NCBI RefSeq assembly: GCF_030157465.1
Contig: NZ_JAOAUU010000003.1
Location: 1-63,147, forward strand
Direction of reading: 5' to 3'
Origin: Zoogloea sp.
GTDB lineage: Bacteria > Pseudomonadota > Gammaproteobacteria > Burkholderiales > Rhodocyclaceae
DNA: 63,147 bases
Shown here: positions 7,758-28,655 of the stretch, piece by piece
Layout: each line of letters opens with the position of its first letter
Position numbering within the stretch: position 1 is the stretch's first letter
Program-made: the position numbers and the translations under genes
The notes under the pieces: generated by a model
Seen by the model: only the letters and a program-made list of their open reading frames with translations
Told to the model about the DNA's origin: nothing
Databases searched by the model: none

Positions 7758-9095
<1,338 letters not shown>

Positions 9096-10354: not shown

Positions 10355-10429
10355 GGGGTGGCTCGTAGTTGACCCACGGATACAGTTTCCATCATGAAAT
10401 CCCCCTTCATTACCTCACGTGGTCATCTG

Positions 10430-12295
10430 TCACTTCCGCGATACAACGCTGTAAAGATGCGAAATCAGCACGCCAAGGTGTAGGAAACCGCTGATGATGG
10501 AAATCATGCTCACCACCACAAAACCCACCGAAGGATCGTCCACAATCTTTAAATGCTGCATCGGCGCACCGACGGAAAAGAAGGACGTAATGGCGTTCTC
10601 CAACCCTATCCCAAAGCGCACCAGACCACAGTCAGACGGGTTCGGGTCTGCGGGATATAGGGCAAAGAGGAATGCCAGCACAGCTACCCAAATTCCTAAG
10701 ACGCCCACGAAACGCAGAAACGACTCCAGTAGATATTCGACATAGCGAATGGGTAGCCAGAAGATAGAGCGCCAAGATCGAGACTTCATCCATAGCGTAC
10801 TGTGGAGGCTACGTACTTTGTTCATGCAAATCTGTTCCTCGTCGAACCGGTTGTATTCGCGCAGGATACGAACTAGTTGGTTTAGGATATGCATGTGTGC
10901 GTTAAGACGTGCGGACTCGCGTTTACCCTCGCCGAACCACAGACAGATGGCTTCGAGGTCACGGGTGATGTCAGAGATACGCGGTTCAATGTGGATGTGG
11001 TACTCCACCCCGGAAAACTGGCACTCCGCCATGACTTCGAACTGATGCTTAAGGGACAGCGCCTGGATTGCAGAAGTAGGTGTTCGGCATCCAGTTAGCT
11101 CCAAGGCATCGGCGGCCAGCGTGGCGCCGAGCACCGCATCACCAACCGACCTGACCTGTGACTTGATCGCCTCTGCCCGCTCAATCAGCTTTTCCGCAAC
11201 CAGAAGCAACTTTCCCGGCGCCCCATGCCCATCCGCCTTTCCGGCTAAAACTGGCTTTTCTGGCGGCCAACGATGGGAGGGGGCGAAATCAGTATGCGAA
11301 ACTCCGTCATAACGGCGCATCAGCCCAGCCTGCTCCCACAAGTCGAACAAGCCGCTGGCCGGCTTGAGCACCAAGGTGCCGCGCCCGTGGGCCTTTTCCC
11401 TAAGATAATCCCGGTTACGGCTCAGCGTGTCATCCCCCGGCCGAGTCTGTCCGGTCGTGATGAGAACGCGCTGGCGGGACCGTTCAACCGCGGCATTGAT
11501 GGAATCCAATTGAGGACATTCTCTTGCACGCTCCCCCCGCAAACAATGCAGCTTGATCCCTTTTTCCCGATCCGGGAAATTCAAGCTCATGTCCTCCAGT
11601 AGCAGCCAATAGGGGTGTTTGCCCTTATTCCCGAAGGTGTTCTTCATCCGCTGCCAACTGGCGATCAGATCGGCGCGGAAACCGAAGCGATAGGCGCAAT
11701 AGCCGTTGAAATAGAGATACGACTGTTCTTCCTCGATGATCGCGGCCCTCTCTTCGCGCAGGGGCAGACGTAGATCATCTTTCAGCTCATGCTCAAGACA
11801 ATGGTTGGTTCGCTCCCGAATCCAGTCGCGTAGGCCTGTCGCATCGAACAGCGGATCGGACTCGCCCGGGCCAAACAGCGATATGAGGCTATGGTGCTTG
11901 GCCAGTTCTGTTACCCTTTTCGCGTCGGCATTCGAAGCGCCCCATACACCGAACACCCAGCGAAACTCCGGGAAGGCTAGGATCAGCATGGAGAGCAGGG
12001 ATTCCCATCCTCCGCCCTGGGCCACGACATTCAAGTCATCCGGCCGCGCGATGCCATCGACCAACACCACCACCCGATGACGGGAAGGCATCTCGCCGCC
12101 TCCATAAGCGGCCTCCTCTAAGGCGCGAGCCAGTCGATCAAACGCTTGAACGACGGGCAAACCTTCTCGCCCCTCCCAGACGATCACCCGTTGGTCGTCA
12201 TCAAGCTCTGCAATCGGCCGCTCACCCCGCAATGCCAACCATGCACCAAGTGCGTGGGCGGTAGGTTTCGAATGGGCAAGGATCAAATGTCGCAT
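10430..12295 (-). CDS. Island protein of unknown function with receiver-like N-terminus and channel-like C-terminus
   Basis: This is the last gene of the island operon, 621 residues, not recognised as a named family. The N-terminal 165 residues look like a Rossmann or receiver-type fold (HLILAHS at the start, a hydrophobic strand HRVVVLVDG ending at D80, WVFGVWGAS). The middle (about 175-510) is soluble, with a conserved-looking segment TGCRTPTSAIQALSLKHQFE near 401-420. The C-terminus has two hydrophobic spans (about 527-547 and 589-613). Between them lies an amphipathic piece ENAITSFFSVGAP (566-578), whose placement recalls the pore helix and filter of two-span ion channels. It begins 11 bases after the AAA+ gene. 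I infer a membrane effector or output; no enzymatic motif was found. Confidence 0.75.
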   Translation of the reverse strand: MRHLILAHSKPTAHALGAWLALRGERPIAELDDDQRVIVWEGREGLPVVQAFDRLARALEEAAYGGGEMPSRHRVVVLVDGIARPDDLNVVAQGGGWESLLSMLILAFPEFRWVFGVWGASNADAKRVTELAKHHSLISLFGPGESDPLFDATGLRDWIRERTNHCLEHELKDDLRLPLREERAAIIEEEQSYLYFNGYCAYRFGFRADLIASWQRMKNTFGNKGKHPYWLLLEDMSLNFPDREKGIKLHCLRGERARECPQLDSINAAVERSRQRVLITTGQTRPGDDTLSRNRDYLREKAHGRGTLVLKPASGLFDLWEQAGLMRRYDGVSHTDFAPSHRWPPEKPVLAGKADGHGAPGKLLLVAEKLIERAEAIKSQVRSVGDAVLGATLAADALELTGCRTPTSAIQALSLKHQFEVMAECQFSGVEYHIHIEPRISDITRDLEAICLWFGEGKRESARLNAHMHILNQLVRILREYNRFDEEQICMNKVRSLHSTLWMKSRSWRSIFWLPIRYVEYLLESFLRFVGVLGIWVAVLAFLFALYPADPNPSDCGLVRFGIGLENAITSFFSVGAPMQHLKIVDDPSVGFVVVSMISIISGFLHLGVLISHLYSVVSRK

Positions 12296-12306
12296 TGCTT
12301 ACCCTC

Positions 12307-14157
12307 TTAGGACCTCATGGCAGCCGCGCGCGGAGATCGTGGGCGCAGCCGCAAGGCAATGCCAAGCGCTTCCCGTAGGTCCCCCCACAGTTCCCCTTCC
12401 AGTGGACCGAGCAGACGCTTGATCACATCCGCGGCGCGCGAGGCCGTCAGGGTGGCGTCACCGGTCATCAACCGCACTGCGGGGTGGATTTGCAGCACCC
12501 CCTCGGGGTGTTCCGGCGTGCGCCGCTTGGTGGCCTCCAGGGCGGCGAGCAGGTAGCGCGCCAGTAGCCAGGCCTGGGCCTGCTGGAGTTCGCCCAGGCG
12601 ACAAGACCAGCGGGTGACTTCGCGGGCATCGAAGCGCAATGCCGATTGCACGGCAAACCAGCCATCCAGATCGATGGACTCCTTCTCAATAGATGGCACG
12701 GAAAGGAGAGCATCCCACGACTCCACTACCGGCGGTTTGGCCGCAACCGACACCGCCCCTTCCTTCAAGCGAAGATGGCCGGGTACCAAGTGCTCCACAT
12801 CGGGGAATCGGTTCACTGCATCGAACAGACAGGTCCGCAACTCGCGCACGTTGCCCAGCCAGTCATAGGTGCGCAGCCGGTCCAGGGCCTCGGCGGTGAT
12901 CTCGCGATGCAGTGTGCCGGGACGCTGGGCCTCCGCCTCGCGCACGAAGCGCTCCACCAGCACCGGGATGTCCGTCACCCGCTCACGCAACGGCGGCAAC
13001 CAGAGCGTGCCCCCCAGGCGCAGACGGTCCAGCAGGTCCGCGCGGAAGCCACGCGGATCGTTTTCCAGATCGGCATTGGTGGCGGAAATGAAGCGCACGT
13101 CCACTGCCCTGGGCTGACGTGCCCCGACCCGGGTGATCTGCTTGTTCTGCAGAACCCGCAGAATCGCGGCCTGAACCTCGGGTGGCATGTCGGCTATCTC
13201 ATCCAGGAAGAGGTCTCCGCCATCTGCCGCTTCCACTAGGCCGATCTTGCCGTCCACGCCGCTGGCCGTCCTGGGCTCGATGCCGAACAATTCCGAGGCG
13301 AACAGTTCCGTGCGTAAGACCGCGGAATTCACAGTCACGAAGGGACGGTTCGCACGGTCACTCGTACATACCCTTTGGGCATACGCGGCAAGCAATTCTT
13401 TACCAGTTCCCCGCTCACCCCGGATCAGCAGGCTCCCCCTATGCGAAGCCGCTCGTCGGGCTTCTCGTAATGCCATCAGGACCGGAATAGAGCTCCCCAC
13501 CACTTCACCGGAAGGATCGCTCAGCAGCCCATGTTGCCAGAGCATTTCTCTCAGGATATCCGCACCATTGGGATCATCCCGTGAAATGAAACCAAGGGCG
13601 CCTTGTCGACTGAACTCTAGGCTGACATCCCCCCTTGGCTTGGTGGAAAGAATGACGACCGGCAAATCTGGCAACTCGCGAGAAATCTCGGCCAAGAGCT
13701 TGAGGCCGAAGTAACCACGGGGATCGTCATCGCCCTGCCGCCCCTCTGGCATTCCAGGCGCCCGTTTTTGGCTCTCTTCAGTGACCTCGCCGGTGTAAAA
13801 GCAAAGATCGAGCAGAACCATGCTCCAAGGCAAGGTGGGGGTGGCATTTCCAGCCTGGTACGCATCCATGTGCCAACCACTACGGACCATATTCATCGCC
13901 GAGACCAGATCATTCTCAACCACCGTGCCGATAGGGGATTCGAGCGGGAACTGCGCCCGGTGAAATACGGCATCGGCAATCGGTTTGAGCACCTTCTGCC
14001 GACTGGCACTTGCCGCGGTATCGCCAGTGACATCGCGCCAGAGGAAATGCGCGCACAGATTCTCGCGGTCGGCATTCCGACCATCGGGCACGACTCTACC
14101 GAAGAGATCGTCGAGTATGAGCAGGCGCGGCAAGGTCATTGTCATTGTCATTGTCAT
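12307..14157 (-). CDS. Receiver-AAA+ protein related to sigma-54 activators but lacking the GAFTGA loop and HTH
   Basis: A 616-residue island protein. Residues 1-205 are receiver-like with long insertions (acidic pair D16-D17, candidate phospho-acceptor D117 in VLLDLCF, ILSTK switch at 169-173). Residues 220-465 are an NtrC-type AAA+ domain: Walker A GERGTGKE (247-254), ELFG (289-292), Walker B DLFLDE (315-320), sensor I FISATNAD, and GNVREL (435-440). Where sigma-54 activators have GAFTGA, this protein reads IEPRTASGVDGKIG, so the sigma-54 contact loop is gone. The C-terminal 130 residues show no Fis-type HTH. They carry a helical region (QAQAWLLARYLLAALEAT, HPAVRLMTGD, AADVIKRLL) I do not recognise. 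Four in-frame ATGs lie in the first 24 bases. The protein probably acts on a protein partner rather than on sigma-54 promoters (inference). Confidence 0.85.
   Translation of the reverse strand: MTMTMTMTLPRLLILDDLFGRVVPDGRNADRENLCAHFLWRDVTGDTAASASRQKVLKPIADAVFHRAQFPLESPIGTVVENDLVSAMNMVRSGWHMDAYQAGNATPTLPWSMVLLDLCFYTGEVTEESQKRAPGMPEGRQGDDDPRGYFGLKLLAEISRELPDLPVVILSTKPRGDVSLEFSRQGALGFISRDDPNGADILREMLWQHGLLSDPSGEVVGSSIPVLMALREARRAASHRGSLLIRGERGTGKELLAAYAQRVCTSDRANRPFVTVNSAVLRTELFASELFGIEPRTASGVDGKIGLVEAADGGDLFLDEIADMPPEVQAAILRVLQNKQITRVGARQPRAVDVRFISATNADLENDPRGFRADLLDRLRLGGTLWLPPLRERVTDIPVLVERFVREAEAQRPGTLHREITAEALDRLRTYDWLGNVRELRTCLFDAVNRFPDVEHLVPGHLRLKEGAVSVAAKPPVVESWDALLSVPSIEKESIDLDGWFAVQSALRFDAREVTRWSCRLGELQQAQAWLLARYLLAALEATKRRTPEHPEGVLQIHPAVRLMTGDATLTASRAADVIKRLLGPLEGELWGDLREALGIALRLRPRSPRAAAMRS
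14134..14157 (-). repeat. Tandem ATGACA hexamers forming four in-frame start codons
   Basis: Read on the minus strand, ATGACA occurs three times and is followed by ATGACC, so the AAA+ gene opens MTMTMTMT. The first copy overlaps the stop codon of the upstream methyltransferase (ATGA). Any of the ATGs at 14157, 14151, 14145 or 14139 could start translation. Gain or loss of a hexamer would not shift the frame. Confidence 0.85.
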
Positions 14158-15080
14158 TGCAGAGTCAGTTCAAGGTGATAAAGATCCAAAGCCATGCCAG
14201 TCGCTTCCACCACCGTGACATTCCTTGCGAAAACCGTTTGCTCATAGAGAAAACCCTCAGCCTCCGCGTGGCTCCGGATCATCTCGTTTGGAAGGAAATC
14301 CGACGAGATCAATAGCACCTTTCCGCACGGGTTCAAAAAACTCTTGGCGTCGGAGATGACTTTCCGTACAGATTCCCCTCCTGGATCGATAATCGAGCGC
14401 AGCAAGGCCTTCTCACACGGATCATCACAATCCTCCAGCACCTGCCGTACAAGCCGGTCTTCACTGAGAATCCATGGCATGGCCCACAGGATCACATCGA
14501 AGCGCTTCTCTGAAGGGATGCAACTGAAAAGATCGCTTTCGATGACTTCAAACCGAGACTCGTCGATACCGAACCGATCGACGTTTGCACGCAGGTTGAT
14601 CACGGCGTACTTGCTCACGTCCGCTGCGCAAATGTATCTAGGCGTGGCATTCCTATAGAGGTATAGGGAAATTATGCCGCTCCCGGCGCCCATCTCCAAC
14701 ACCGACTTCCCATCTACAAGACCCCTTTGAGCAATATAGTTAGCCCACAGATAGCTATCGGTCGCAAATTCAGGGGAGAACACCCCCCGCATCACCTGCA
14801 TCCCTGCCAATTCGCGGTAGCTGTCGAGTGTGACACTTGGCATCTCGCTGTGGGTATGAAGGGTAAGATGGATCAGTTCCAATACCTTGATCTGCATGAG
14901 CAGTTCATGGTCACTCTGGCAGTGCTGATTTTGGTGGTCTTGCGCACCACCAGACGACTCGAGTTTTTTTGCCAAATGGACTATCAGACGGCTGATCCCT
15001 TTACCGCATTTGCCATAGCGCTGACGAAGTGTGGCAGCCTGACTATCAAACGTATTCATCGGTGGCGAGGATGGAGTCAT
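14154..15080 (-). CDS. Class I SAM-dependent methyltransferase, HemK/PrmC-like
   Basis: An island enzyme of about 308 residues if translation starts at 15080 (MTPSSPPMNTF). The ATG at 15059 is an alternative seven residues later, and neither has a good ribosome site. Motif I is VLEMGAGSGIISLYLY (about 127-142), the acidic residue of motif II is in CAADVSKYA, and motif IV reads DVILWAMPWI (about 195-204). In HemK/PrmC and N6-type methyltransferases this last motif is normally NPPY/F; here its Asn is replaced by Ala, so the target or activity may differ. The first 100 residues are helical and may bind a partner. It overlaps the preceding gene and shares ATGA with the AAA+ gene, so it is translated in the operon chain. 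The substrate is unknown. Confidence 0.82.
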   Translation of the reverse strand: MTPSSPPMNTFDSQAATLRQRYGKCGKGISRLIVHLAKKLESSGGAQDHQNQHCQSDHELLMQIKVLELIHLTLHTHSEMPSVTLDSYRELAGMQVMRGVFSPEFATDSYLWANYIAQRGLVDGKSVLEMGAGSGIISLYLYRNATPRYICAADVSKYAVINLRANVDRFGIDESRFEVIESDLFSCIPSEKRFDVILWAMPWILSEDRLVRQVLEDCDDPCEKALLRSIIDPGGESVRKVISDAKSFLNPCGKVLLISSDFLPNEMIRSHAEAEGFLYEQTVFARNVTVVEATGMALDLYHLELTLQ

Positions 15081-15573
15081 GACAGAGTGTGAGGGACGAA
15101 AACAGAGACCCAAGACGACGGGCGCGTTCTTCGAGGTTCCCAAGCAGTTCGGCATCCGGCATCGTGCCAGAGCCCTGAAGTCGCGTGCAGGTCCGCCGGA
15201 TCGCATTGTCGAATTCATCCAGGGCATTCGACGCATCGTTGACAAGTTTCTCGGCATTCGTAAGCTGAATCCAACGAAGGCGATCGACCTCCAGAAGGTA
15301 GCGGCAGGTGACTTCCCCAAGTGTCAGGGAATCGCTCGACAAAGGGTCGAGTGCATTGTGAGCACGCGACTCCATTACCAACAGAACCTCGACTGCGGAG
15401 GGACGGACCGCCTCCCAGCCAATTAAGAGATCCAACAAGTCACTCCGTGCGTCTTCGTCCTGTACCAATCCACTCACGACCCGATTGCACCTCAGAAGAC
15501 AGGCTATAAGTCTGTTCTTCAACCAGCCATGGTTGAAAGTAGAACGCTTGTTTTCCCACTCAGAGTTCGTCAT
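15046..15573 (-). CDS. Small all-helical island protein of unknown function
   Basis: A 175-residue protein without a recognised domain. The sequence is predicted by eye to be almost wholly helical (for example LDEFDNAIRRTCTRLQGSG and NLEERARRLGSLFSSL). It has no signal peptide and no membrane span. Its start codon overlaps the stop of the 274-residue gene (ATGA at 15570-15573), and its 3' end overlaps the next methyltransferase. It is therefore embedded in the translational chain and is likely an adaptor or partner of the neighbouring proteins. It has the lower GC content of the island's signalling genes. Confidence 0.7.
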   Translation of the reverse strand: MTNSEWENKRSTFNHGWLKNRLIACLLRCNRVVSGLVQDEDARSDLLDLLIGWEAVRPSAVEVLLVMESRAHNALDPLSSDSLTLGEVTCRYLLEVDRLRWIQLTNAEKLVNDASNALDEFDNAIRRTCTRLQGSGTMPDAELLGNLEERARRLGSLFSSLTLCHDSILATDEYV

Positions 15574-16394
15574 GATGCATCGCGCCTGAGCATTCCCAGT
15601 ACTACATCTAACCGTTGAAATGCCTTTTTAATTGTTTCCCAGGCCAGCGGGGCATCAGGGTCTACAGCATTGAACACCCCGCAAACCAAATCATGAATAA
15701 TCGGGTCTTCGTCTTTCAGGACTCTTACGCCCAATTCATGTTGAAGCGCCTTGTTTACGCTTTCATACAATTCTTCTTGCGCATCATAATATGATTTGGA
15801 ATCAGGCCAAGGAAAGTCGGCAAGAACTCGGCAAAACAATTCAACGCGGTTCACCTTCGCGTGTGACGAACTGGGCACGGGCAGACACCCAAGTATACTA
15901 ATAGCTTCAGCTCCATGTTTTGGGTTGTTTCCCAACTCTGCCATGCAGGCTTGCAGGAGTATGTGGAGCGCCCGGAGTCGGTGAACAGTTGACCATGCTA
16001 CAAGATCTCTAATTTCTCTCGGTATGGATGTACTGAGTTGGTTGACAATTTCGATATCGCCAAATGCTGCGACGAGGGCATGGAAATCATGTTCAGTGAG
16101 TTTTCCGTCGTTTTTTGTCGGCTTGAGGCAGCGAAAGCAATTCCCGTGCTTGCCTTCCGGCGGTGAGCGTGGGTACCCACTCGAGCTGGTAAACCGCAGA
16201 GCAACGCGTTCTTTGGGCAATGTGCCGCAAATCTTTGTCCAGTCAGAATCGCGCACATGAACAAATAGGCAATCTACCGAGGACTTAAGCGCATCATCAA
16301 CAGACGCATAAAATTGAAGGCGGCAACTTGTTGCGTACCCTGCAAGCCCATATTGATCCTGATCCTTATCAAAAAACCCGATCTTCGCTGTCAT
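15570..16394 (-). CDS. Island protein with degenerate receiver-like N-terminus
   Basis: A 274-residue protein not matched to a named family. The first 75 residues follow a receiver-like strand pattern (KIGFFDKDQDQ with acidic residues, then DCLFVHVRDSDW, then VALRFTSSSG). A proper phospho-acceptor strand is not clear, so it may be a pseudo-receiver. The remaining 200 residues are helical (HRLRALHILLQACMAELG, LYESVNKALQHELGV). It starts 10 bases after the 415-residue receiver-like gene and overlaps the next gene. The operon thus encodes several small receiver-like modules, which would suit a shared kinase input. Function unknown. Confidence 0.7.
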   Translation of the reverse strand: MTAKIGFFDKDQDQYGLAGYATSCRLQFYASVDDALKSSVDCLFVHVRDSDWTKICGTLPKERVALRFTSSSGYPRSPPEGKHGNCFRCLKPTKNDGKLTEHDFHALVAAFGDIEIVNQLSTSIPREIRDLVAWSTVHRLRALHILLQACMAELGNNPKHGAEAISILGCLPVPSSSHAKVNRVELFCRVLADFPWPDSKSYYDAQEELYESVNKALQHELGVRVLKDEDPIIHDLVCGVFNAVDPDAPLAWETIKKAFQRLDVVLGMLRRDAS

Positions 16395-16404
16395 GCTATT
16401 AGCC

Positions 16405-17652
16405 CTACCAATAAAAGGTAATGCCTTTGTTGGTCAAGCAGGGCCACGCCACCCATTTCCTGGAACCGTTTCTGAACAACTTCACCCAATCCTCGTCACC
16501 TGAAATGCCGGCAAGACGGGAATGACAGAAATGGAAAATAGCCTCTGAGAAGCCTCCGCTGGGTATCTGCTCACAGATTGGATCTTGCCCGGTAAACGTT
16601 TTATGCGCTATCCAGTCCTTGCGTAGTAAGCGGTCAATCATTTCGGATTGATTTGCGGCTTGCAGCTCCACTGAAACAAAGTATCGGTTTTTTTCATTAC
16701 CAAAGCGCACAGCTTCCGGCTTCGGATTATTCTTGCCCAAAGCTACAATTAATTCTCGAAGAGACAGCAAAAACACAATTCCCGGTTCTCGTGGAAAAAC
16801 AAAATTATCGCATATGCATTCCACGGAGAAATCGAAGTTGAGTTTCTTAACAGCATCAAGCACTACAGACTTGTTCATCGGTCTTGACGGCGAATCAGAC
16901 AATCCCCATGCTTTCTGCCTAATATGGATGGCCTTGTTTTGGCAGTCGGCCGTGTTCATATCATCTCCGAATGAACAATTCCAGATATTTTGACCTAGCT
17001 CCACATTCTCTTCGCACCAATCATGGAGCCATGCATTAGAATCGCTAGTTATTGGTTGTGCGTATAGTTCGAGTATCTGTCGCGTTATTGAGTCTGGGTG
17101 ACGGTGTAGTTTGATTATCTCTTCTTTCCACGACTTCCATTGATAGTCATAACGGTCCGGAGCATAGGGAATTCGCCAGCTATCGCACCAAGGCCGGAAG
17201 GCTCTGCTGCCCGCCGCCGTTGATATCAATATGACCGGGATTTCTCGCGCTTTCAGTACTGCGCACGCCAGCACTGCCGTGCTGTATTCGGTCAGTAATT
17301 GGTTGTGGATATCGGTCGCTTCATTCAGTAGCGATCTTGCCGTCTCACCCCAAGGTTCAGTGCTGTTATTGATATAACAAGATAACTCCCTCCTCGATGT
17401 GACTTCGCTAACATCACCCAAATGGAGGTCAACAAGAAAAATTGAATCTGGCGGCGCTGCGGTAATAGCGGTCCAAACGTTAATGCAATTAACACTATTG
17501 TCAGCAACTGCAACTGCGGCATTACGATCATTCGGACAATTATCCGCCTGATATTCTGGCAAGTCTGGAAGCGAAGCATTAAGAGAGTCGATAAGCGCTG
17601 CCAATTGAAGATGCCGACCAGCATCATCGTCTATCAGGTATATCGTCTTCAT
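16405..17652 (-). CDS. Receiver-like island protein with unrecognised C-terminal domain
   Basis: A 415-residue protein. It opens with YLIDDDAGRH (acidic triad at residues 8-10) and the strand IFLVDLHLGD, giving a candidate phospho-acceptor at D75. ILISTAAG at 141-148 fits the switch Ser/Thr strand. The receiver carries long insertions and no clear conserved lysine. Residues 200-415 are unrecognised; a helix followed by strands (LLSLRELIVALGKN, then NRYFVSVELQA) loosely recalls a GHKL ATPase N-box, but the match is weak. The start overlaps the stop of the methyltransferase-kinase gene by ATGA, making it the likely partner of that kinase. Base composition is clearly AT-richer than the flanking chromosome. 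Confidence 0.75.
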   Translation of the reverse strand: MKTIYLIDDDAGRHLQLAALIDSLNASLPDLPEYQADNCPNDRNAAVAVADNSVNCINVWTAITAAPPDSIFLVDLHLGDVSEVTSRRELSCYINNSTEPWGETARSLLNEATDIHNQLLTEYSTAVLACAVLKAREIPVILISTAAGSRAFRPWCDSWRIPYAPDRYDYQWKSWKEEIIKLHRHPDSITRQILELYAQPITSDSNAWLHDWCEENVELGQNIWNCSFGDDMNTADCQNKAIHIRQKAWGLSDSPSRPMNKSVVLDAVKKLNFDFSVECICDNFVFPREPGIVFLLSLRELIVALGKNNPKPEAVRFGNEKNRYFVSVELQAANQSEMIDRLLRKDWIAHKTFTGQDPICEQIPSGGFSEAIFHFCHSRLAGISGDEDWVKLFRNGSRKWVAWPCLTNKGITFYW

Positions 17653-20261
17653 GCCATCTTCTCGTTGTCAGCCCTTGGGACAACAATATCTGTTTCCCAT
17701 GTATGACGAAACATACTCTTTCCAAGTTCCTCACACGACAATTTTTTGATCCCGGAACGAGATTGATAATCAGGATTGTCAATAAATAGCTGGCGTTCGT
17801 GGTATTTAATCACGGATTCTGTCCCAGGGACGCCTTGTTCCCGCTTAACCCTCATTGGTTCTTTGTCTTCATCTCCGTTATTGCTATTGGTATAACTATT
17901 AATTATTTGAATGCACCCAGCCACGGCCGTAATATTGATTGCGCGGGCGTCATTACCTCGCTTGGAGCAGTGTGCAATTGTATTGCGTAGACCTGCAATA
18001 AATGCCGCAGCGAAGTGGAGTTGTTTGACAGAAGTGTCCATTACGCAATCCGTCTCAGTAACGATTGATATCGTGCTGCTTGCTTCTTCTCTCCAGGCGC
18101 TGATTTGCTCCACATTTAATGTCTCGGGATCATATTCATTCTTATGACGTAGCTTCTCGAAAACATAGGCCAATGCGCTCAGTTCGCTTAAGGTAGCCCG
18201 TAGATCCACATGGGAGTCTAATAAATGACAAAATTTAGCAAACGTCGGACCGAGGGTTTGTTCCAATTGGAGCTGTAAATAGTCCTTCACCAACTGCGCA
18301 AAAGGCTTGGAGATGCCTGGTTCGATCAGGTCAATCAGCTTCTTCGTCTCGTGCGCTGCTGAGACCAACATGGCCTGACGAAGAGACAGGTCTAGTTGGG
18401 ATCGAGTGCTCTCCGAATAACGTTCTTCATAAAGAAATGAAGCCAGGCGCGCGAGATCGGCAACCTGACATTCATGTGATGTCGACCAAGGTTTGGCGCA
18501 CCAAGCGTACACATACACAATACCGGACTCGGCATGACTGCTTTTTGGCTTGAGCAAAGGCATCGGCAGCGAGATGAAATAGCATTGACTGCTCCCCCCG
18601 GATAACAAGCCCTCAACACGCATGATTCCTGTGTATGCCCGCAACGCTCGCCGCAGACACGATTCGAAGGTTGCAGTGCTGGGATTCTCGATGCGCATCT
18701 CGAATTTCTTGAGCTCATGTAAATGCGAGCTGCATGACACGTGGCCATGGCGGATAGCGGGCGGGTTGAGCTTAAGTACGGGTAACTGTGTCGGCTCCTG
18801 TGTGTCGTCCTCGCATTCTGATCGTTGAAAGCAGACAGCTTGCTGCCAAGCCTGCGCGTTGTTTTTCCTGAGATGTTCCGGGTGCAGGAATATCGAGCGA
18901 TCTTCTTTGACAAAGCGAGATATCTCGAGCAAAACCCTGTTTAGTGCCCTGGAAACGGGCATCTCGTCACCACCGTTTGCCGTGCCCGCCCAGATCGCGG
19001 TTTCCGTTCGCAATCTGAGGCGACTCGTGGCGAAATGCCATGGCACAGCCTCAACCATGAGGCAGTCGAACCCGTCCGGATTGGATGGGCCGCGCAACAA
19101 GTCGTTGTGCCTTATCCAGTGATCGATCTGCACCTGGGTTTGCGTAAGAACCTTCGAAACTTCGTCAGGCAGTGAATCGCCGGTTGGTGGCCGGAAAGCC
19201 GAGTCCGGGTTGGTGCGCTGGAGGAAAAGGGCAATGGCGGACATCCAAAGGTGCGCCTTGGCTTCGGCTGCGTCATCAATTGGGCCGTTCCCAGGTTCAT
19301 GCGTGATCTGCGGAAAGCGTAAGTGGTTCTCAGATGTCAGACGATGCATCAGTATGCGAGCCGGCCATGTCCAGTTTGGCAAAGGCGCCAGGGGATTGGA
19401 CGCTGGCTTGACGAGTTCAACTTCACGCTTCCGAGCATCCCTATCTTTAGTCAACTCAATGAACGCAAGGCAGAAATAATCGTTCGAGTACGTTTCTGAG
19501 GCGACACTGCTTGCAGCGTTGGAATCGGAACGATACTGGTCGTCCAGAAACTCTCGCACGGGTATGGACTCCATTGCAGTGAAGACACGTACGGACGACC
19601 AACGGTCAACTTCTGACCCCGTTACATTAAAGAGGTCGTTCTTAGGCTTGCCTTGATCATCAGTCAGCAACAACTGGATGGCATAAACCCGCCCCTGTTC
19701 CTTTAGCAAGGAATACGCAATAGGCAGCGTCTCCAAGAAGGCGTCTTGGCCCAGGACTCCACCGGATACGCAGCGAGTAAGGTGGTGCCCATCCCGACAG
19801 GGGCTGAATGGGGCGTTGACGAGGACGTAATCAGCCTGCCCCTTTAACGGTTGTAATTGCGTCGGATCATTCCAGTCGAAAGGCTCAAACTTGACGCGCT
19901 CATCAATGCTGTCGATAAAGACTTGACGGTTCTTGCTCAGGTTGTAGCTCGCGAAGTGCTGGGCTCGATCACAGATGTCAATTCCGGTGACCCGCATGCC
20001 CAGCGATGCCGCGTAAAGAGATAAGACGCCTGACCCCATACCAAGGTCAACCGCGTGCCTGCCCACTCTGTCTTCGTCGCTGGGAAGGAGAGCCTTGAGC
20101 ATTCGGCAGAAATACACCTGCTCATCTTCGATGCAGGGGAGAACGAGGTCTTGCCTGTGGGAAGTGATGGGGTCGGCTTCAATGGTCAGTCCATCGAAGT
20201 GCGCCACACCTCGCCAGGGATCGACGAAGCAGGGTTGCCAGTTTTGCGAGGGTTTCAACAT
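17649..20261 (-). CDS. Methyltransferase fused to a GAF-histidine-kinase-like module
   Basis: An 870-residue cytoplasmic protein without spans. Residues 1-240 form a class I methyltransferase: motif I AVDLGMGSGVLSLYAA (70-85), motif II acidic residue in VTGIDIC, motif IV YVLVNAPFSP (145-154), close to the NPPF of N-methylating enzymes. Residues 240-510 are unassigned. Residues 515-615 resemble a GAF domain leading into a helix. SAAHETKKLIDLIEP (634-648) fits an H-box with H637. Residues 745-830 fit a GHKL ATPase of the AgrC/natural-product type, with N-box AGLRNTIAH (N760), INITAVAGCIQIIN and GTESVI. A clear DxGxG box is missing. It sits between the Liv binding protein (31-base gap) and a receiver-like gene (ATGA overlap). 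A methyltransferase joined to a kinase is unusual. Confidence 0.82.
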   Translation of the reverse strand: MLKPSQNWQPCFVDPWRGVAHFDGLTIEADPITSHRQDLVLPCIEDEQVYFCRMLKALLPSDEDRVGRHAVDLGMGSGVLSLYAASLGMRVTGIDICDRAQHFASYNLSKNRQVFIDSIDERVKFEPFDWNDPTQLQPLKGQADYVLVNAPFSPCRDGHHLTRCVSGGVLGQDAFLETLPIAYSLLKEQGRVYAIQLLLTDDQGKPKNDLFNVTGSEVDRWSSVRVFTAMESIPVREFLDDQYRSDSNAASSVASETYSNDYFCLAFIELTKDRDARKREVELVKPASNPLAPLPNWTWPARILMHRLTSENHLRFPQITHEPGNGPIDDAAEAKAHLWMSAIALFLQRTNPDSAFRPPTGDSLPDEVSKVLTQTQVQIDHWIRHNDLLRGPSNPDGFDCLMVEAVPWHFATSRLRLRTETAIWAGTANGGDEMPVSRALNRVLLEISRFVKEDRSIFLHPEHLRKNNAQAWQQAVCFQRSECEDDTQEPTQLPVLKLNPPAIRHGHVSCSSHLHELKKFEMRIENPSTATFESCLRRALRAYTGIMRVEGLLSGGSSQCYFISLPMPLLKPKSSHAESGIVYVYAWCAKPWSTSHECQVADLARLASFLYEERYSESTRSQLDLSLRQAMLVSAAHETKKLIDLIEPGISKPFAQLVKDYLQLQLEQTLGPTFAKFCHLLDSHVDLRATLSELSALAYVFEKLRHKNEYDPETLNVEQISAWREEASSTISIVTETDCVMDTSVKQLHFAAAFIAGLRNTIAHCSKRGNDARAINITAVAGCIQIINSYTNSNNGDEDKEPMRVKREQGVPGTESVIKYHERQLFIDNPDYQSRSGIKKLSCEELGKSMFRHTWETDIVVPRADNEKMA

Positions 20262-20292
20262 CTGTCAGGGGAGACGTGGTTAAGCTTTGACG

Positions 20293-21447
20293 TCATTGGT
20301 CACCCATGAGGGGAACGAGAACGCCATTGCGATAGATCGCCGGCTGCAACGATGTAATGACACTCTGGTCGGCACCATAGCGGACCGGGCCCGTAACGCC
20401 TTTGATATCTGTGCGCAGGATGGCGGCAAGCCAATCCTGCGATGATGCCGGCAGTTTCAGTCGTGTCGCCGCGTCGACGATCGTCAGTCCCGCATCGTAG
20501 GCAAACGCGGCATGGTAAGAGGGTTTGCGGCCATACTTCTGTTCAAAGCGTGATGCCCAAGCCTTTTGCTCCGAATCCGGATCGACCATGAATGGCGGGG
20601 CTGCGACCATAATGCCTTCCGACTCCTCCGGTGACAGCGCACCCGCGGCATCCAGCATGTCCAGCGCAGCCATCGTCTTGCCCTGTTTGATGATCCCCAA
20701 AGGACGCATGGCTTTGATGAGGCCCACCATGTGGGGAATGAATCCATTGATCATTACCAAATCGGGCTTCTTCGAGGCGATACGCACAGCGATGTTCTTG
20801 AAATCGCCGGCGCCTATATCCGGGTTGTAGCGCTCAATTACGACGCTGGCGCCTAGTTCATTACGCAGACGGTCCGCGAGGTATTGGCCGTAGGCGGCCT
20901 CGCTGCTGGGGAGGCTGACGTACGAAAGGACAACGTTCTTGGCACTCTTCTTCTTCGCGTATTCGAAGAACACATCCGTTTCCAGCTTGAAACTCACCCA
21001 GGTACGGAAGTTATTTGTGGTTCCGGCGGGGTTGGGCGTCAAGTCGAGAACCCATGCCAAGTGGGGAATGCCGGCAGCGGCCACCTCCTTTTCCACTGCC
21101 ATGACTTGCGGTTTTAACGCCGAGGTATAGATGGTTGGGGGGTTCTGCAAGTGGCGTTGAAGGACAGTGGCGGCATCTTTTGGGGTGAAGCGGTTGTCGC
21201 CCCACTCGAACTCGATGGACGTTCCGGCGGCAAGTGTGTTTCCTTTATCAGCGACCGCCATTAAAAGGCCGTCACGAAATTCTTCACCGTAGAACGCCAG
21301 TTCCCCGCTCAAGGGGTAGTTCGCCGCAACTGTGACCTTATAGCCGCCATCTCCGACTTGTGGCTTAGTTGGGAGAATGGCCACGGAGACAAGCACTGCG
21401 AAAAGCGCAATGCCTATTAAGGCAATGAACGATTTCTTGTTAAGCAT
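20293..21447 (-). CDS. Liv-type ABC substrate-binding protein, probably membrane-anchored
   Basis: This is the binding protein of the island's ABC importer, 384 residues, type I periplasmic fold (VTVAANYPLSGELAFYGEEF, residues about 38-57; VVLSYVSLPSSEAAYGQY mid-protein). The N-terminal hydrophobic stretch SFIALIGIALFAVLVSVAIL lacks an obvious signal-peptidase site or lipobox, so it may stay anchored in the inner membrane. It starts 28 bases after the fused ATPase and ends 31 bases before the methyltransferase-kinase, all on one strand. Its ligand is unknown; Liv-type proteins bind amino acids, amides, urea or aromatic acids. It could feed the importer, signal occupancy to the kinase, or both. 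Confidence 0.88.
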   Translation of the reverse strand: MLNKKSFIALIGIALFAVLVSVAILPTKPQVGDGGYKVTVAANYPLSGELAFYGEEFRDGLLMAVADKGNTLAAGTSIEFEWGDNRFTPKDAATVLQRHLQNPPTIYTSALKPQVMAVEKEVAAAGIPHLAWVLDLTPNPAGTTNNFRTWVSFKLETDVFFEYAKKKSAKNVVLSYVSLPSSEAAYGQYLADRLRNELGASVVIERYNPDIGAGDFKNIAVRIASKKPDLVMINGFIPHMVGLIKAMRPLGIIKQGKTMAALDMLDAAGALSPEESEGIMVAAPPFMVDPDSEQKAWASRFEQKYGRKPSYHAAFAYDAGLTIVDAATRLKLPASSQDWLAAILRTDIKGVTGPVRYGADQSVITSLQPAIYRNGVLVPLMGDQ

Positions 21448-21475
21448 TTCTGTGTATTTCCTGGATGGTTGCTGA

Positions 21476-23026
21476 TTAGGTTGTCGAGGGCAGCGCTATC
21501 AGCACCGCGTTCGTGGTTTGAGATAGGATTTGTTGCGCAGCAGCACGAATTGCAGCGATATCGAGGTTGGCGAAAGGCTCGTCGAACATACGTAGCTGAG
21601 GGGTAGCCCAGTTCGGTTCCGCTAGGAGGGCAAGGCGTTGTTTCTGACCACCGCTGAGTTCGGACGAGCGGCGCCGGGCAAGAATGCCCAACTCGGCTAT
21701 CGCATCCTGCTGTCCGGCGAGCCTGAGCGCCTCTTGGGCCGTTAGGTCCGGGAAGACGTTGTGATCCGATGGGATCAAATGCAAGCCCTCTCTGACGCGA
21801 CCCCAGACCGGGAGGCGGTTTATCGGCTTGGCACCAAGGAGAATGTCGCCTTGGAATACCGGTATCAGGCCGCTTATGCCTGCCAACAGAGAGCTCTTGC
21901 CCCACCCATTCGGCGCCTGGAGTACGGCAATCTCACCTTTGAAAACCCGGAGGTTGAATCCGGTTTCCTGTTGTTCGTCATCAAGACCGATCACGACGCG
22001 GGAGCCGCGCTTGAGTATGAGATGCCTGATATCCAGGACGGCTTCTTCGTTTTGCACCGCTCGGTCTGAACGTCGAATGCGCGTTAGTCTGGCACCATTT
22101 GGTAGTGGCTCGTCGATGACGGTACTTGCATCGTCGATAAAGAACTCCATCCATGGATAGATATGATGAATTTCGGTTCGTTGTGCCGCATGGCCGTTTG
22201 GTACCAGCTTGCCGTTCTCGAGCAGCCAGTCGGTAGTGACCAAGCCGTGCAGGTGGATATGGTTAAAAGCATGCTCAATGATGACAAGGGTAACGGCTTG
22301 TTCACGGACAAGGCGCTCTAGCAACTCCAGGATCTGTGTGACGCCGGAATGATCCAGTCCGGCAAGCGGTTCATCTAGAAAGAGAACGCGGGCGCCAGCG
22401 GCGACAGCACGCGCGATGGCTACACGTTTTGCCTGACCGAGGGAAATCTTGTCCGCAGACGAGCTTTCACGTCCAGCAAGCCCGAGACGGACGAGCATGG
22501 CATCAGCCCTTTGATGCATCTCTTGTTCAGTGCGTTGGACGTGGCCCTGCGCGAAAAGCGCAAACAAGGGTCTTTCCCCGGCATGGTCAGGTTCAGCGAC
22601 TACGATGTTGTCGCGCAGGGTCTGGCCGTTGAAAAGGCGAATATCCTGCCAGGTACGGCACACGCCTTCCTTGGCGACGAATTCCGGCGTGAAGTGGTCG
22701 AAAGGGTTCAGCTCTTGCCACCAGTGGCGGGGGAAGCGGTAGGTACGGGGCGTGTCGTCGGCCTGGTAGCGGATGGTTCCAGCATCGGGCTCGAGGTTGC
22801 CGGTGAGGATGTTGAGCAGGGTGGTCTTGCCGGAACCGTTTTCGCCGCGCAGCAGCACGACCTCACCCCGCCGCAGTTCCAGATCCACGCCGTCCAGCAC
22901 GACTTGGCCACCAAAGCGCTTCTTTAACCCTTCTGCGCGCAGCATAACCGGTGCCTGCCGGTTGTCCGTCTGATGTGTGGTGGCGGCGGTTGGTGAATGG
23001 GAGGATTGTCGTGTGGCTTGCATCAT
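21476..23026 (-). CDS. Fused LivG-LivF-type double ATPase of the island importer
   Basis: Liv importers normally use two separate ATPases, LivG and LivF. Here both are in one 516-residue chain. The first half has Walker A GENGSGKT (about 61-68), a variant signature ISLGQAKR, Walker B VLFLDEPLAGLD and switch IIEHAF. The second half has Walker A APNGWGKSS, a canonical LSGGQKQR signature, Walker B LRMFDEPFANLD, but its end (AVLIALPSTT) lacks the switch histidine. The two ATP sites are thus likely asymmetric, one consensus and one degenerate. The start overlaps livM by four bases. The linker (about 270-330) carries an extra strand-rich insertion. Confidence 0.9.
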   Translation of the reverse strand: MMQATRQSSHSPTAATTHQTDNRQAPVMLRAEGLKKRFGGQVVLDGVDLELRRGEVVLLRGENGSGKTTLLNILTGNLEPDAGTIRYQADDTPRTYRFPRHWWQELNPFDHFTPEFVAKEGVCRTWQDIRLFNGQTLRDNIVVAEPDHAGERPLFALFAQGHVQRTEQEMHQRADAMLVRLGLAGRESSSADKISLGQAKRVAIARAVAAGARVLFLDEPLAGLDHSGVTQILELLERLVREQAVTLVIIEHAFNHIHLHGLVTTDWLLENGKLVPNGHAAQRTEIHHIYPWMEFFIDDASTVIDEPLPNGARLTRIRRSDRAVQNEEAVLDIRHLILKRGSRVVIGLDDEQQETGFNLRVFKGEIAVLQAPNGWGKSSLLAGISGLIPVFQGDILLGAKPINRLPVWGRVREGLHLIPSDHNVFPDLTAQEALRLAGQQDAIAELGILARRRSSELSGGQKQRLALLAEPNWATPQLRMFDEPFANLDIAAIRAAAQQILSQTTNAVLIALPSTT

Positions 23027-23922
23027 TTCAACCGGTATTCGCCGCTGATGCCCTGCGGACGGAAGTGCATCATGAGCACCAGCAATAGACCGTAGCAGGC
23101 CAAGCGCAGGTTGGCGGCCTGGGCATCGGGCAAATGCAGAAAGCGCAGCAGTTCGGGCAAGGTGATGAGGATGATGGCGCCCACGATTGGTCCACGAAAG
23201 TTGCCCACCCCGCCGACCAGCACCATGCTCAGGATCAGGATGCTCTCATTCAGGGTGGCAGAACTGGGGTCCAGATAGCCGATGTAGCTCGCGTACAGAG
23301 CACCGGCCACGGCAACCAGACCGCAGGAGATGGCCAAGGCCTGGACCTTGAGCAGACGAGTGTTTTTGCCCAAGCCGCGGGCGGCGAGTTCGTCCTCGCG
23401 CATGGCGATCAGGACCCGCCCCCAGGGAGATGCTTTCAAGCGCCAGAAAATACCGGCGCAGATCACGGTCAGCAGAGTGGCGAGAATAAGGAAGCTGATT
23501 GGATCGGCAACGTTGTAACCGAGTACGTCCGGCTTGGGAATGCCAGCGATGCCGAACGGTCCGTTGGTCAGATTGCTCCAACTGCCCAAGGGGGCCTGGG
23601 GGTCGAACCAGTTGTAGAACAGGCTGAAGAGGAGAGCCTGCACTGCCAGGCTGCCTAACACGAAGAAATCCCCTTTGAGCCGCCAGGCTGGCAGTGAAAC
23701 AGCCAGACTGACTATGGTGGCGATCAAGATGGCCGCCAGGAGCGCAGGAAAGAAGCTCCAGCCCAAAGTTATGGCCAACAGGGCGTAGACATAGCCGCCG
23801 AGGGCGAAATAGCCCGCATGTGCGAGTGTGAGCATGCCGCAATACCCCACCACGAGATTGAGGCTCAGGGCCACGATCACGTAGATGTCCAGGTAGATGA
23901 GCAGGTGGATGAGGTAGTTCAT
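23023..23922 (-). CDS. Liv-type ABC permease (LivM-like)
   Basis: This is an inner-membrane permease of the branched-chain amino-acid/urea ABC family, 299 residues with about eight to ten hydrophobic spans. The typical N-terminal pattern LNLVVGYCGMLTLAHAGYFALG is present (shown here only in part: GYCGMLTLAHAGYFALGGY), as is the coupling region RVLIAMREDELAARGLG that docks on the ATPase. It overlaps livH and the fused ATPase gene by four bases on each side (ATGA), so the importer subunits are translated together. The substrate is not predictable from sequence. Confidence 0.9.
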   Translation of the reverse strand: MNYLIHLLIYLDIYVIVALSLNLVVGYCGMLTLAHAGYFALGGYVYALLAITLGWSFFPALLAAILIATIVSLAVSLPAWRLKGDFFVLGSLAVQALLFSLFYNWFDPQAPLGSWSNLTNGPFGIAGIPKPDVLGYNVADPISFLILATLLTVICAGIFWRLKASPWGRVLIAMREDELAARGLGKNTRLLKVQALAISCGLVAVAGALYASYIGYLDPSSATLNESILILSMVLVGGVGNFRGPIVGAIILITLPELLRFLHLPDAQAANLRLACYGLLLVLMMHFRPQGISGEYRLK

Positions 23923-24791
23923 TTAACGGTGGTTTCGATGCGGGTTTCGCGTCCGAAAAGTCCTTGCGGTCGTAGCAGCAAGAACAATGCCAACACAAGG
24001 AAGGTAACAGCTTCCTGCCAGCGTGCCGAGAATTGCCATACCACCTGTGCTCGGATGAGGCCCAGGAGCAAGCCGCCGATGATTGGTCCGATCAGGGATG
24101 TCCGGCCGCCGATGATGACTGCCACGATGGCCAGCAGTGTGGCGTTCAGGCCGGTGTGCGGGTCAAAACCAATGTCTCGGGCAGTGAGCAGTGATGCCGC
24201 CGTGGCCAGGACACCGGCCAGTGCAAAGGCAAGCAGCCGGTGGGCATCCACGTTGTAGCCGTAGAGCGCGAATTGGGTGGGGTTGTCCGCCAGGGCGCGC
24301 AGGCGCAGACCGATGTCGGTCAGGTACAGCATGGCAAGCACGGCCAACAGGAGCAGCAAACCCACGCCACCCATGAGGAGCTGGGATTGGGTCAGGATTG
24401 TGTCGCCCATGGCATAGGTCACGTCCAGCCCAGTTCGCAAAGTTCGCGTCTCGTTGCCCCAGATCATGGCCACCACCTGAACGACCAGGATATAGAGTCC
24501 TAGCGAGGCGATCAGATGCGCGCCTTCGGAGGCGCGCTTGCGGGTCAACGGGGCATGATTAGCCCATTCGAACAGGACAGCCAAGGTAACTACGCCGCAC
24601 AGGGAAACCAGCAACCCTCCCATCCATCCGCCCAGCTCAGACGCTCCCATTTGAAAGAGATAGGGCGCCAATGTGTAGAGACCCGCGAGGCCGACGAACA
24701 ACACGCGGGTTGGGAGGTAGACCATCTGGAAGGCCATGGCCAGTAAGGCGATGGCAATTCCAGAAATAAAACCGTTAATCAGGATTTGCAT
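23919..24791 (-). CDS. Liv-type ABC permease (LivH-like), first gene of the island operon
   Basis: This is the other inner-membrane permease of the importer, 290 residues, starting MQILINGFISGIAIALLAMA as LivH proteins do. The coupling loop LRLRALADNPTQFALYGYNV lies near residues 179-198. It is the most upstream gene of the eleven-gene minus-strand run; the 286-base gap before it separates it from a divergent toxin-antitoxin pair. The following permease overlaps it by ATGA. Confidence 0.9.
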   Translation of the reverse strand: MQILINGFISGIAIALLAMAFQMVYLPTRVLFVGLAGLYTLAPYLFQMGASELGGWMGGLLVSLCGVVTLAVLFEWANHAPLTRKRASEGAHLIASLGLYILVVQVVAMIWGNETRTLRTGLDVTYAMGDTILTQSQLLMGGVGLLLLLAVLAMLYLTDIGLRLRALADNPTQFALYGYNVDAHRLLAFALAGVLATAASLLTARDIGFDPHTGLNATLLAIVAVIIGGRTSLIGPIIGGLLLGLIRAQVVWQFSARWQEAVTFLVLALFLLLRPQGLFGRETRIETTVK

Positions 24792-24853
24792 GTGGCCAGA
24801 GCGTCTGAGAAACCTTGTTTTCGATGGACTCTAACAAATATGATGCCCGTTAA

Positions 24854-24868
24854 GATAACGCGCTTATC
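24854..24868. promoter_or_regulatory. Palindrome GATAA-N5-TTATC upstream of livH, possible operator
   Basis: GATAACGCGCTTATC is a perfect 5-base inverted repeat around CGCGC, 63 bases before the livH start. A regulator could bind here to control the island operon. I found no strong sigma-70 promoter in the same gap, so the call is tentative. Confidence 0.3.
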
Positions 24869-24962
24869 CGGAAAACCACCAAGCCTCTGCAGTACTCATC
24901 ACATCTAGATTGTTCTACTCAATCTTGGCAGCGACACACAAGAACATTAAATAGGTATCTAT

Positions 24963-25050
24963 AGTATCGCATTTGATACTAACGAAATCTACGCAGACCT
25001 ACACGCCGGCCACTCAAGTATCGATTGATACAACGTACGCAAATACGTAC
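24963..25050 (+). promoter_or_regulatory. Clustered inverted repeats before the toxin-antitoxin pair, likely autoregulatory operators
   Basis: AGTATC-N6-GATACT (24963-24980) and GTATC-GATT-GATAC (25018-25031) share the half-site GTATC. A third palindrome, GTACG-N6-CGTAC, lies at 25035-25050. YefM/Phd-type antitoxins repress their own promoters by binding such repeats, so these are likely operator sites. Confidence 0.6.
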
Positions 25051-25077
25051 CATAGCAACTCTCACCGGAGAGCAACC

Positions 25078-25320
25078 ATGACCACCCTCACCGCAAGCGA
25101 AGCACGGGCCAACTTGTATCGCCTCATCGACCAGGCTGCGGAGTCCCATCAGCCTATCCACATCGCGGGCAAGCGCACGAGCGCGGTCCTGGTGTCAGCC
25201 GAGGATTGGCAGTCCATTCAGGAAACGCTGTATCTCTTGTCGGTTCCCGGCATGCGCGAGTCCATCAAGGAAGGCATGGCTGAACCCCTTGGCGAGAGCG
25301 TCAAGGAACTCGACTGGTGA
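25078..25320 (+). CDS. YefM/Phd-type antitoxin
   Basis: An 80-residue antitoxin. The start TTLTASEARANLYRLIDQA is diagnostic for the YefM family, and SAVLVSAEDWQSIQETLYLL follows. The N-terminal half should dimerise and bind the palindromes just upstream, while the C-terminal tail wraps the toxin. The ATG at 25078 has a GGAG site (CACCGGAGAGCAACC) and gives the family N-terminus; a longer in-frame start lies in the operator region and is rejected. The stop overlaps the GTG start of the toxin gene. It lies between the island and rsmI, a common spot for stabilisation modules on acquired DNA. Confidence 0.92.
   Translation: MTTLTASEARANLYRLIDQAAESHQPIHIAGKRTSAVLVSAEDWQSIQETLYLLSVPGMRESIKEGMAEPLGESVKELDW

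Positions 25321-27354: not shown

Positions 27355-28655
<1,301 letters not shown>

Follow-up and report, generated by a model that had tools for sequence, protein, structure and literature searches.

A recurrent modular cassette that joins varied importers and output proteins to a putative receiver-AAA+ relay core

Introduction

An island of eleven genes in a 63,147-nucleotide stretch of DNA from Zoogloea sp. (assembly GCF_030157465.1, contig NZ_JAOAUU010000003.1, positions 1 to 63,147; the whole stretch is the window hereafter) places a Liv-type importer in one run with methyltransferases, receiver-like proteins, an AAA+ protein and a putative membrane protein. Do these genes form one system, and what could such a system do? 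An initial annotation, made from the letters of the window, had proposed a small-molecule-sensing relay with a membrane output, serving either defence or signalling. Here we report that the central genes of the island recur in a conserved order in 15 loci from several phyla, the window included, together with transporters of four classes and several kinds of output protein. As a finding at the level of the system, and judged from sequence, a recurrent modular cassette is secure; the mechanism and purpose that we propose for it are tentative.

Results

A conserved core with exchangeable neighbours

The initial annotation suggested asking whether the non-transporter genes travel together and whether the Liv importer is always attached. 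The 15 loci share a core order consisting of a receiver-like protein of about 280 amino acids (aa), a helical protein of about 175 aa and a receiver-AAA+ protein, here called the hub, so that the genes of the core do travel together. The ~280-aa protein precedes the helical gene in 14/14 loci with sequence at that place, the helical gene lies directly before the hub in 14 of the 15 loci (the window is the sole exception, with its second methyltransferase gene between the two), and a gene in the sensor position stands before the core wherever sequence exists. The importer, by contrast, is not always of the Liv type: some transporter lies upstream of the core in all 12 loci with visible upstream DNA, and it belongs to the Liv type in five (window, Thiosymbion, AminB, VerrB, G824), to the SBP_bac_3 type in five (G375, AminA, Desulf, VerrA, G768) and to the NMT1 type in G921, with a sodium:solute symporter in Pirel. 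These classes were assigned by Pfam on representatives and by homology for the remaining loci; the Chlorobiaceae, Anaerolineae and G773 loci start too near the core to show upstream genes. One output protein occurs with several importers, and one importer class with several outputs. The loci named by taxon come from Thiosymbion, Chlorobiaceae, Verrucomicrobia (two, VerrA and VerrB), Anaerolineae, Aminicenantes (two, AminA and AminB), Desulfuromonadales (Desulf), Proteobacteria (G375) and Pirellulaceae (Pirel).

A search of 84,980 species genomes with the hub receiver gave ten loci, G375 among them. Strong loci were found in G824 and G768 among 194 genomes of one phylum and a weaker one in G921 (93 bits) among 199 genomes of another, the centre genome being included in each set; at E 1e-15, no match but that of the centre was found in 198 genomes of a third phylum, and among 350 genomes of the class only the genome of the window matched. 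The G773 locus was kept at 34 bits, a relative of the helical gene adjoining it, while weak matches to the hub-receiver profile, with E no higher than 0.001, in another 10 of the 194 genomes and 25 of the 199 were taken as ordinary receivers and left out; most of these cover only a stretch near positions 142-205, and that in G909 spans 8-173 at 28.7 bits. The output protein of the window was found in its own genome and in G375 (57% identical) among 249 genomes of the family, and in its own genome among 398 phylum-wide genomes, plus a weak match (E 6.6e-4) whose frame is interrupted by two stops. In G375 hub and output protein occur together, next to an importer different from that of the window. 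The 870-aa protein in the sensor position of the window had no relative in 299 genomes beyond four weak matches to its methyltransferase segment.

The features of the window are as follows.

23919..24791, minus strand: LivH-type permease, the first gene (Pfam BPD_transp_2, 1.8e-23)
23023..23922, minus strand: LivM-type permease (Pfam BPD_transp_2, 9.5e-37; Thiosymbion homologue 76% identical)
21476..23026, minus strand: fused double ATP-binding cassette (ABC) ATPase of LivG-LivF type (Pfam ABC_tran in two stretches)
20293..21447, minus strand: periplasmic binding protein (Pfam Peripla_BP_6, 2.8e-38; 25% identical to its Thiosymbion counterpart)
17649..20261, minus strand: 870-aa protein, N-terminal HemK/PrmA-like methyltransferase followed by the sensor-position region (Pfam PrmA/MTS, weak)
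16405..17652, minus strand: 415-aa protein with a receiver-like N-terminus (hhalign)
15570..16394, minus strand: 274-aa core protein, receiver-like (alignment of 14; hhalign)
15046..15573, minus strand: 175-aa all-helical core protein with a near-invariant His15 (alignment of 15; AlphaFold2)
14154..15059, minus strand: second methyltransferase, HemK/PRK14968-like (Pfam MTS, 5.5e-9; start re-assigned)
12307..14157, minus strand: receiver-AAA+ hub (Pfam Sigma54_activat, 1.3e-42)
10430..12295, minus strand: output protein with an N-terminal alpha/beta part, a receiver-like middle, a helical part and two C-terminal spans (alignment of 6; hhalign; span prediction)
10355..24970, no strand: inserted island, approximate limits (flank spacing in same-genus genomes)

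The receiver-AAA+ hub

The receiver of the hub matches three PDB receiver entries by profile (E 2.8e-4 to 0.006), scores 97.8% against a receiver profile in hhalign and is 50-66% identical to that of the window in nine relatives; in the alignment of the window with these nine, outside which five other loci stand, D16, D17, D117 and S171 are invariant (10/10 rows), and D117 would be the phospho-accepting Asp. The window hub carries the AAA+ Walker A and B motifs. It resembles sigma-54 activators of the NtrC/NtrX type in joining a receiver to an AAA+ part, in the PDB receivers that its profile matches and in the sigma-54-type sites found before the operons of relatives; it differs from them in that its receiver is divergent, with insertions, that it lacks GAFTGA and that the window protein has no helix-turn-helix (HTH) domain by Pfam at E 0.01, whereas the neighbouring regulator at 7758-9095 does match HTH_8. 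A receiver-AAA+ protein that had lost the sigma-54 loop, as initially annotated, is therefore what the window encodes, and this does not extend to all relatives: GAFTGA or GAYTGA is kept in 5 of 14 hubs (AminA, Desulf, VerrB, G375, G768), G921 has GAFTSA, and the loop is lost in eight of the 14 examined (the Pirel contig ends within its hub). We attempted to count exchanges of importer or output on a tree of the 14 hubs, which did not resolve them: many shuffles needed as few changes as the real arrangement or fewer, and the branches of G773 and G921 were very long.

Receiver-like and helical proteins

In order to evaluate the other receiver-like proteins, we compared profiles with hhalign, in local mode unless stated; the receiver profile comprised 67 sequences and the two kinase profiles 18 and 23, and control comparisons (binding protein, both methyltransferases) scored at most 2.2%. 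The two receiver-like proteins of the initial annotation obtained intermediate support: the 415-aa protein scored 49% as a single sequence and the 274-aa family 62% for twelve of the 14 aligned proteins. A position-equivalent family of the former (441 aa, three relatives) reached 92.8%, and the G824 equivalent of the 415-aa protein 1%. With the global option, the scores were 89% for a pair of 817/761-aa output proteins, 43.5% for the AminA output, 14.5% for the middle of the output protein and 13% for the 415-aa protein of the window. Judging by these profiles, we consider receiver identity secure for the hub and moderately supported for the other families. The proteins in the 274-aa position are 12-22% identical to the window copy, with His46 invariant among the 14.

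The 175-aa protein was modelled by AlphaFold2 with a mean predicted local distance difference test (pLDDT) score of 87.4 as six helices, His15 lying within the first, which bears out its annotation as a helical protein. A Spo0B-like phosphotransferase was considered for it and was confirmed neither by PDB profile nor by Foldseek.

Output proteins

The two-span protein occurs in 7 loci (divergently transcribed in G375 and Desulf), a receiver/HD-CE/nucleoside hydrolase family in 3, an AAA-receiver-FtsH-like protease in 1 and other receiver-like proteins in 3. In the window protein the middle part scores 59% as a receiver, while its extreme N-terminus was tried as a receiver and failed (about 1%); its AlphaFold2 model is poor (pLDDT 51.5). 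The two C-terminal membrane spans are predicted in 7/7 homologues, 6 of which have in addition a weaker N-terminal hydrophobic stretch, in agreement with the two-span part of the initially proposed channel-like module; its channel-filter-like letters are missing in two of the six aligned proteins. In VerrA and Anaerolineae the receiver, HD-CE and nucleoside hydrolase parts form one protein (the Anaerolineae contig ends inside it), and in G768 the family is split over two genes, with the hydrolase recognised by motif. VerrB has both an AAA-receiver-AAA-M41 protein (M41 being the FtsH-like protease) and a receiver-HD-CE protein (receiver score 80%). The 817/761-aa protein shared by G921 and G773 has a receiver-like middle (28% in local mode), and the output of AminA is a divergent gene with a receiver-like start (84%), cut by the end of the locus. 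Pfam Response_reg matched four output proteins, two above cut-off, and the nucleoside-hydrolase and M41 motifs are intact.

Next to the VerrA output gene lies a fused RpoB-RpoC-like RNA polymerase (1,785 aa; L015 16176-20600, continuing in L084), possibly part of the system; a relative of it, cut by the contig end, is found in G768 at the end of L078. The nucleoside hydrolase gene of G768 (L078 2900-4603) starts, by reading, like a CYTH triphosphate-tunnel domain.

Sensor-position proteins and enzymes

The 870-aa protein had been annotated as a methyltransferase-histidine kinase. Its methyltransferase part is backed by a weak Pfam match (PrmA, 22.6 bits against a cut-off of 22), and residues 248-652 are related to the Chlorobiaceae sensor (profile comparison 91%); for the histidine kinase neither Pfam nor hhalign spoke. 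A cytosolic cue is plausible, because the window sensor and 7 of 12 other sensors have no predicted membrane span.

Methyltransferases occur in 8 loci, the window included, and most of the 15 loci have either these or some other small-molecule enzyme. In Thiosymbion, VerrA, G768 (by cluster) and Pirel the methyltransferase gene precedes that of the sensor; in G375, Desulf and AminA it is found downstream of the hub, on the opposite strand. The second methyltransferase of the window was correctly recognised at first, as Pfam MTS agrees, although its listed start (14154-15320, TTG) overlaps the helical gene and needed correction; an ATG at 15059, or else position 14897, is likelier. Other loci carry other enzymes: in AminB, YcaO, a nitroreductase and one clear and one weak ThiF-like protein stand among the importer and core genes; VerrB has YcaO by Pfam and relatives of the other AminB enzymes by clustering; a B12 radical S-adenosylmethionine (SAM) protein is found in G768 and, by cluster, in VerrA; and a class-V aminotransferase in G768 and Pirel. 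No small-molecule enzyme was seen among the genes scanned in G824 and G921.

Importer, island and insertion

Two permeases, a fused double ATPase and a binding protein were all backed by Pfam, as first annotated. The importer shares with those of the Liv/Urt type two BPD_transp_2 permeases, two ATPase halves and a Peripla_BP_6 binding protein; it is unlike them in that its ATPases are fused, that it is tied to signalling genes and that its best Liv/Urt NCBIfam scores lie far under the equivalog cut-offs, in a scan of the proteins other than LivM.

Sequence identity differs between the parts. Among G375, Desulf and AminA, identities are 78-88% for the importer, 71-72% for the methyltransferase, 65-74% for the hub and 55-66% for the helical protein, and 33-48% for sensor and receivers and 46% (one pair) for the output protein. 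Between window and Thiosymbion they are 70-76% for the permeases, 69% for the hub, 56% for the ATPase, 54% for the output protein and 25% for the binding protein. We take these figures to mean that chemistry and hub are conserved and that signalling and output change fast; ligand recognition would have changed between window and Thiosymbion.

All eleven open reading frames (ORFs) are encoded on the minus strand (10430-24791), with junctions, in transcription order, of -4, -4, +28, +31, -4, +10 and -4 bases, then, after the second methyltransferase, -4 and +11; the ATGA overlaps and gaps of about 30 bases or fewer noted at first are thus reproduced. Island G+C is 47-62%, against 64-71% in the rest of the window (2-kb steps), and at third positions the island genes have 46-78%; of four flanking genes, three reach 86-94% there and the fourth 64%. 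In G1250, of the same genus, just 54 bp separate the flanks (7758-10354 and 25690-28655); in G1244 and G1249, where other low-G+C genes occupy the spot, the distances are 2,014 and 3,007 bp. With its right limit placed at an antitoxin-like ORF starting at 24973, the island looks as if it had been acquired and inserted next to rsmI, at a place that varies among relatives.

Carriage by a mobile element was considered and rejected: no relatives of the sensor, the output protein or two hub receivers were found in plasmid records and none of the output protein in phage records, and five viral-contig scans confirmed no relative. The full-length hub matched 2,387 plasmid records, none covering >80% of the query; of the 30 matches listed, the two opened had unrelated neighbourhoods.

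Between island and rsmI (24973-25580, plus strand), two small ORFs resemble, by reading, a Phd/YefM antitoxin and a YoeB/RelE toxin; similar ORFs, again by reading, lie at the equivalent place in G545 (L108). The other flank (7758-10354, plus strand) encodes an NtrC-type regulator (receiver, sigma-54 AAA+, HTH_8), then a second Peripla_BP_6 protein; the regulator portion is present in most same-genus genomes searched.

Discussion

A possible relay and the points that weigh against it

What might such a cassette do? We propose, tentatively, that a ligand, once imported and processed, sets going a His-Asp relay and an AAA+ switch, which in turn fires an effector gated by a receiver. The importer would deliver an extracellular metabolite, which the methyltransferases (or, in other loci, enzymes of YcaO, E1-like, nitroreductase or radical-SAM type) would convert or read; the sensor would then start a relay that reaches Asp117 of the hub by way of the 415-aa and 274-aa receivers and of His15 in the helical protein. 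Having lost the sigma-54-contacting loop, the window hub would switch the output protein directly, via its receiver-like part, and the output would alter the membrane through its two-span module; elsewhere, what the core activates would be a nucleoside hydrolase or an FtsH-like protease. As to purpose, we tentatively favour a response to conflict, or one that decides the fate of the cell (self-limitation, defence, kin or danger sensing), set off by the imported molecule. The relay with a membrane output that had been proposed at first agrees with this in anatomy and co-location; it did not include that importer, enzymes, sensor and output vary round the core, that some outputs are a nucleoside hydrolase or a protease, that some relatives of the hub keep the sigma-54 loop or that most relatives have a sigma-54-type site. 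It is also possible, with somewhat greater doubt, that whole importers serve as interchangeable inputs to an immune-like core; import and enzymatic processing of an external molecule would be read inside the cell, and the hub would have abandoned transcription to fire interchangeable damaging effectors post-translationally.

Several findings count against the relay. On the side of the sensor, no kinase domain was recognised in the 870-aa protein by Pfam or profile comparison, and what suggests a kinase is where the gene lies, together with short motifs noted by inspection; the AminB/VerrB sensors scored 31.5% as kinases (AminB also has a DUF6272 match at 0.003, below cut-off), every other sensor group scored <3%, and no homology was found between sensor groups, that of window and Chlorobiaceae excepted. 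The sensors may not all be cytosolic, because five of 13 have one hydrophobic stretch with peaks of 1.51-1.78, equal to the weakest accepted spans of the output proteins. Each receiver-like call comes solely from the general receiver profile, because the families score at most 0.6% against one another and against the hub receiver, and the 274-aa grouping follows position, length and a weak alignment, with phmmer linking just two sets (four and three loci). Parts of the relay may be non-catalytic, because the hub has Arg at what we take to be the canonical receiver Lys position and the 274-aa protein has His where the receiver Asp is expected. For the helical protein, Foldseek gave no match at E 0.001 (the best phosphotransfer protein ranked 15, E 0.29), and its PDB profile matches sit on coiled-coil segments away from the His. 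Finally, the promoter-like sites discussed below also fit nitrogen scavenging. The ambiguous spans of five sensors and the mutual unlikeness of the receiver families slightly lower our estimate of both the relay and the importer-input proposals, each of which we hold to be less likely than not, and slightly raise that of the scavenging rival.

Alternative explanations

The main rival, which we consider unlikely, is a sigma-54-controlled scavenging regulon, in which an amino-acid- or nucleoside-like nutrient would be imported, the NtrC-derived hub would regulate the operon and the enzymes (methyltransferase, nucleoside hydrolase) would process the nutrient. In a scan with a -24/-12 consensus (GG and GC required, 8-of-10 or better within 150 bp), 9 of 12 loci had a site, lying 33-114 bp ahead of the first gene; the corresponding figures were 11 of 190 for other ORF starts and 3.4% for random placements, with the first genes chosen by the analyst as the start of the importer operon and the site hypothesis arising from the same data and the same scan. 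Sites scoring 9 or better were found in 4/12 against 5/190, and those scoring 10 in 2/12 against 0/190; the AminA site falls 18 bp within an ORF that probably starts later than listed. The five hubs that keep their loop and the membership of the importers in nutrient families also agree with scavenging. However, window and G824 have no such site within 150 bp of the first gene, and eight hubs lack the loop; the outputs (membrane proteins, a protease, HD-CE/nucleoside hydrolases) carry receiver or receiver-like parts and belong to no single pathway; and the cassette is rare (1/350 class genomes and 2/249 family genomes, own included) while its importer class changes. Thiosymbion, AminB and VerrA keep the site with a hub lacking the loop, and another activator would be needed there because the site is kept while the loop is lost. 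The only 8-of-10 match of the window, 320 bp upstream inside the antitoxin-like ORF, was taken as chance.

Less likely again is a self- or neighbour-made signal. The cassette enzymes (YcaO, E1-like, nitroreductase, methyltransferases, radical SAM) would produce a modified peptide or metabolite, the importer would bring it back in to be sensed, and the result would be a form of quorum or kin sensing whose output kills the cell or makes it differentiate. The YcaO, nitroreductase and ThiF-like genes of AminB, the YcaO and clustered relatives of VerrB and the methyltransferases of the 8 loci are what such a circuit would use; against it, none of these enzymes was seen in the scanned genes of G824 and G921, and no precursor peptide gene was identified, though no systematic search for a precursor or exporter was made. 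A chance pile-up of a transporter operon beside an unrelated signalling operon, which the variable insertion spot in relatives might suggest, is very improbable given the recurrence, with a transporter before the core in 12/12 loci with visible upstream DNA.

Relation to known systems

If the relay and its importer-fed input are real, nutrient-type importers would act as plug-in inputs of a conflict-style system, for which we found no description in searches of an open-licence paper library, a coverage that leaves out subscription papers and preprints. Round one conserved core, the cassette offers a series of naturally occurring combinations of importer, enzyme and effector, with hubs that are relatives of sigma-54 activators, some keeping and some having lost the transcriptional loop.

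Detocs consists of a sensor, an intermediate receiver and a receiver-linked, exchangeable effector, a two-component layout that the proposed relay of the cassette would resemble. The window cassette adds an importer, modifying enzymes, a receiver-AAA+ hub and a His-bearing helical protein, none of which belongs to Detocs to our knowledge. Detocs is a three-gene two-component defence system with a nucleotide-cleaving effector (PMC11249213, PMC10952713).

Among defence families, the core proteins matched none in PADLOC at E up to 1, the AAA+ part of the hub and the methyltransferase domains excepted; sensor, receivers and output matched no two-component defence family there at E up to 1 (whether PADLOC-DB 2.0.0 includes Detocs models was not checked). 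The 415-, 274- and 175-aa proteins and the output protein of the window had no Pfam or NCBIfam match better than E 0.04 and no PADLOC match at E up to 1. The sensor matched mad2 only, via its methyltransferase part, and among the ten of eleven proteins scanned the mad1-mad8 set of MADS was represented by mad2, mad3 and mad8 alone, through methyltransferase and ABC ATPase parts.

Conflict systems dependent on nucleoside triphosphates (NTPs) are reportedly also built of a conserved core with variable effectors, round other NTPases. In Kaur et al. 2020 (PMC7159879), receiver domains occur occasionally among the effectors; no histidine kinases are reported among the vWA-associated effectors, and the term 'ABC transporter' is absent from the text.

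Neighbouring genes

Near several cassettes lie a UvrD-PDDEXK helicase-nuclease, an AAA/PDDEXK_9 protein and a TrwB/HerA-like ATPase (the G375 relative by cluster), at L079 12814-16401, L019 14206-15948, L018 14436-17228 and L008 3871-6420; these nuclease and ATPase neighbours, viewed without a control, hint at a defence-island context. Upstream of the VerrA cassette are a Tubulin_2 protein (L083 3692-7144, minus strand) and a HerA-like ATPase (L083 49-2922, minus strand), and upstream of that of G768 lies a protein that clusters with the tubulin-like one (L077 3-2675, plus strand). A family without Pfam match, perhaps a further component, stands beside the cassette in Desulf, G375 and VerrB (L018 12424-13026, L021 12449-13084 and L082 6283-6993).

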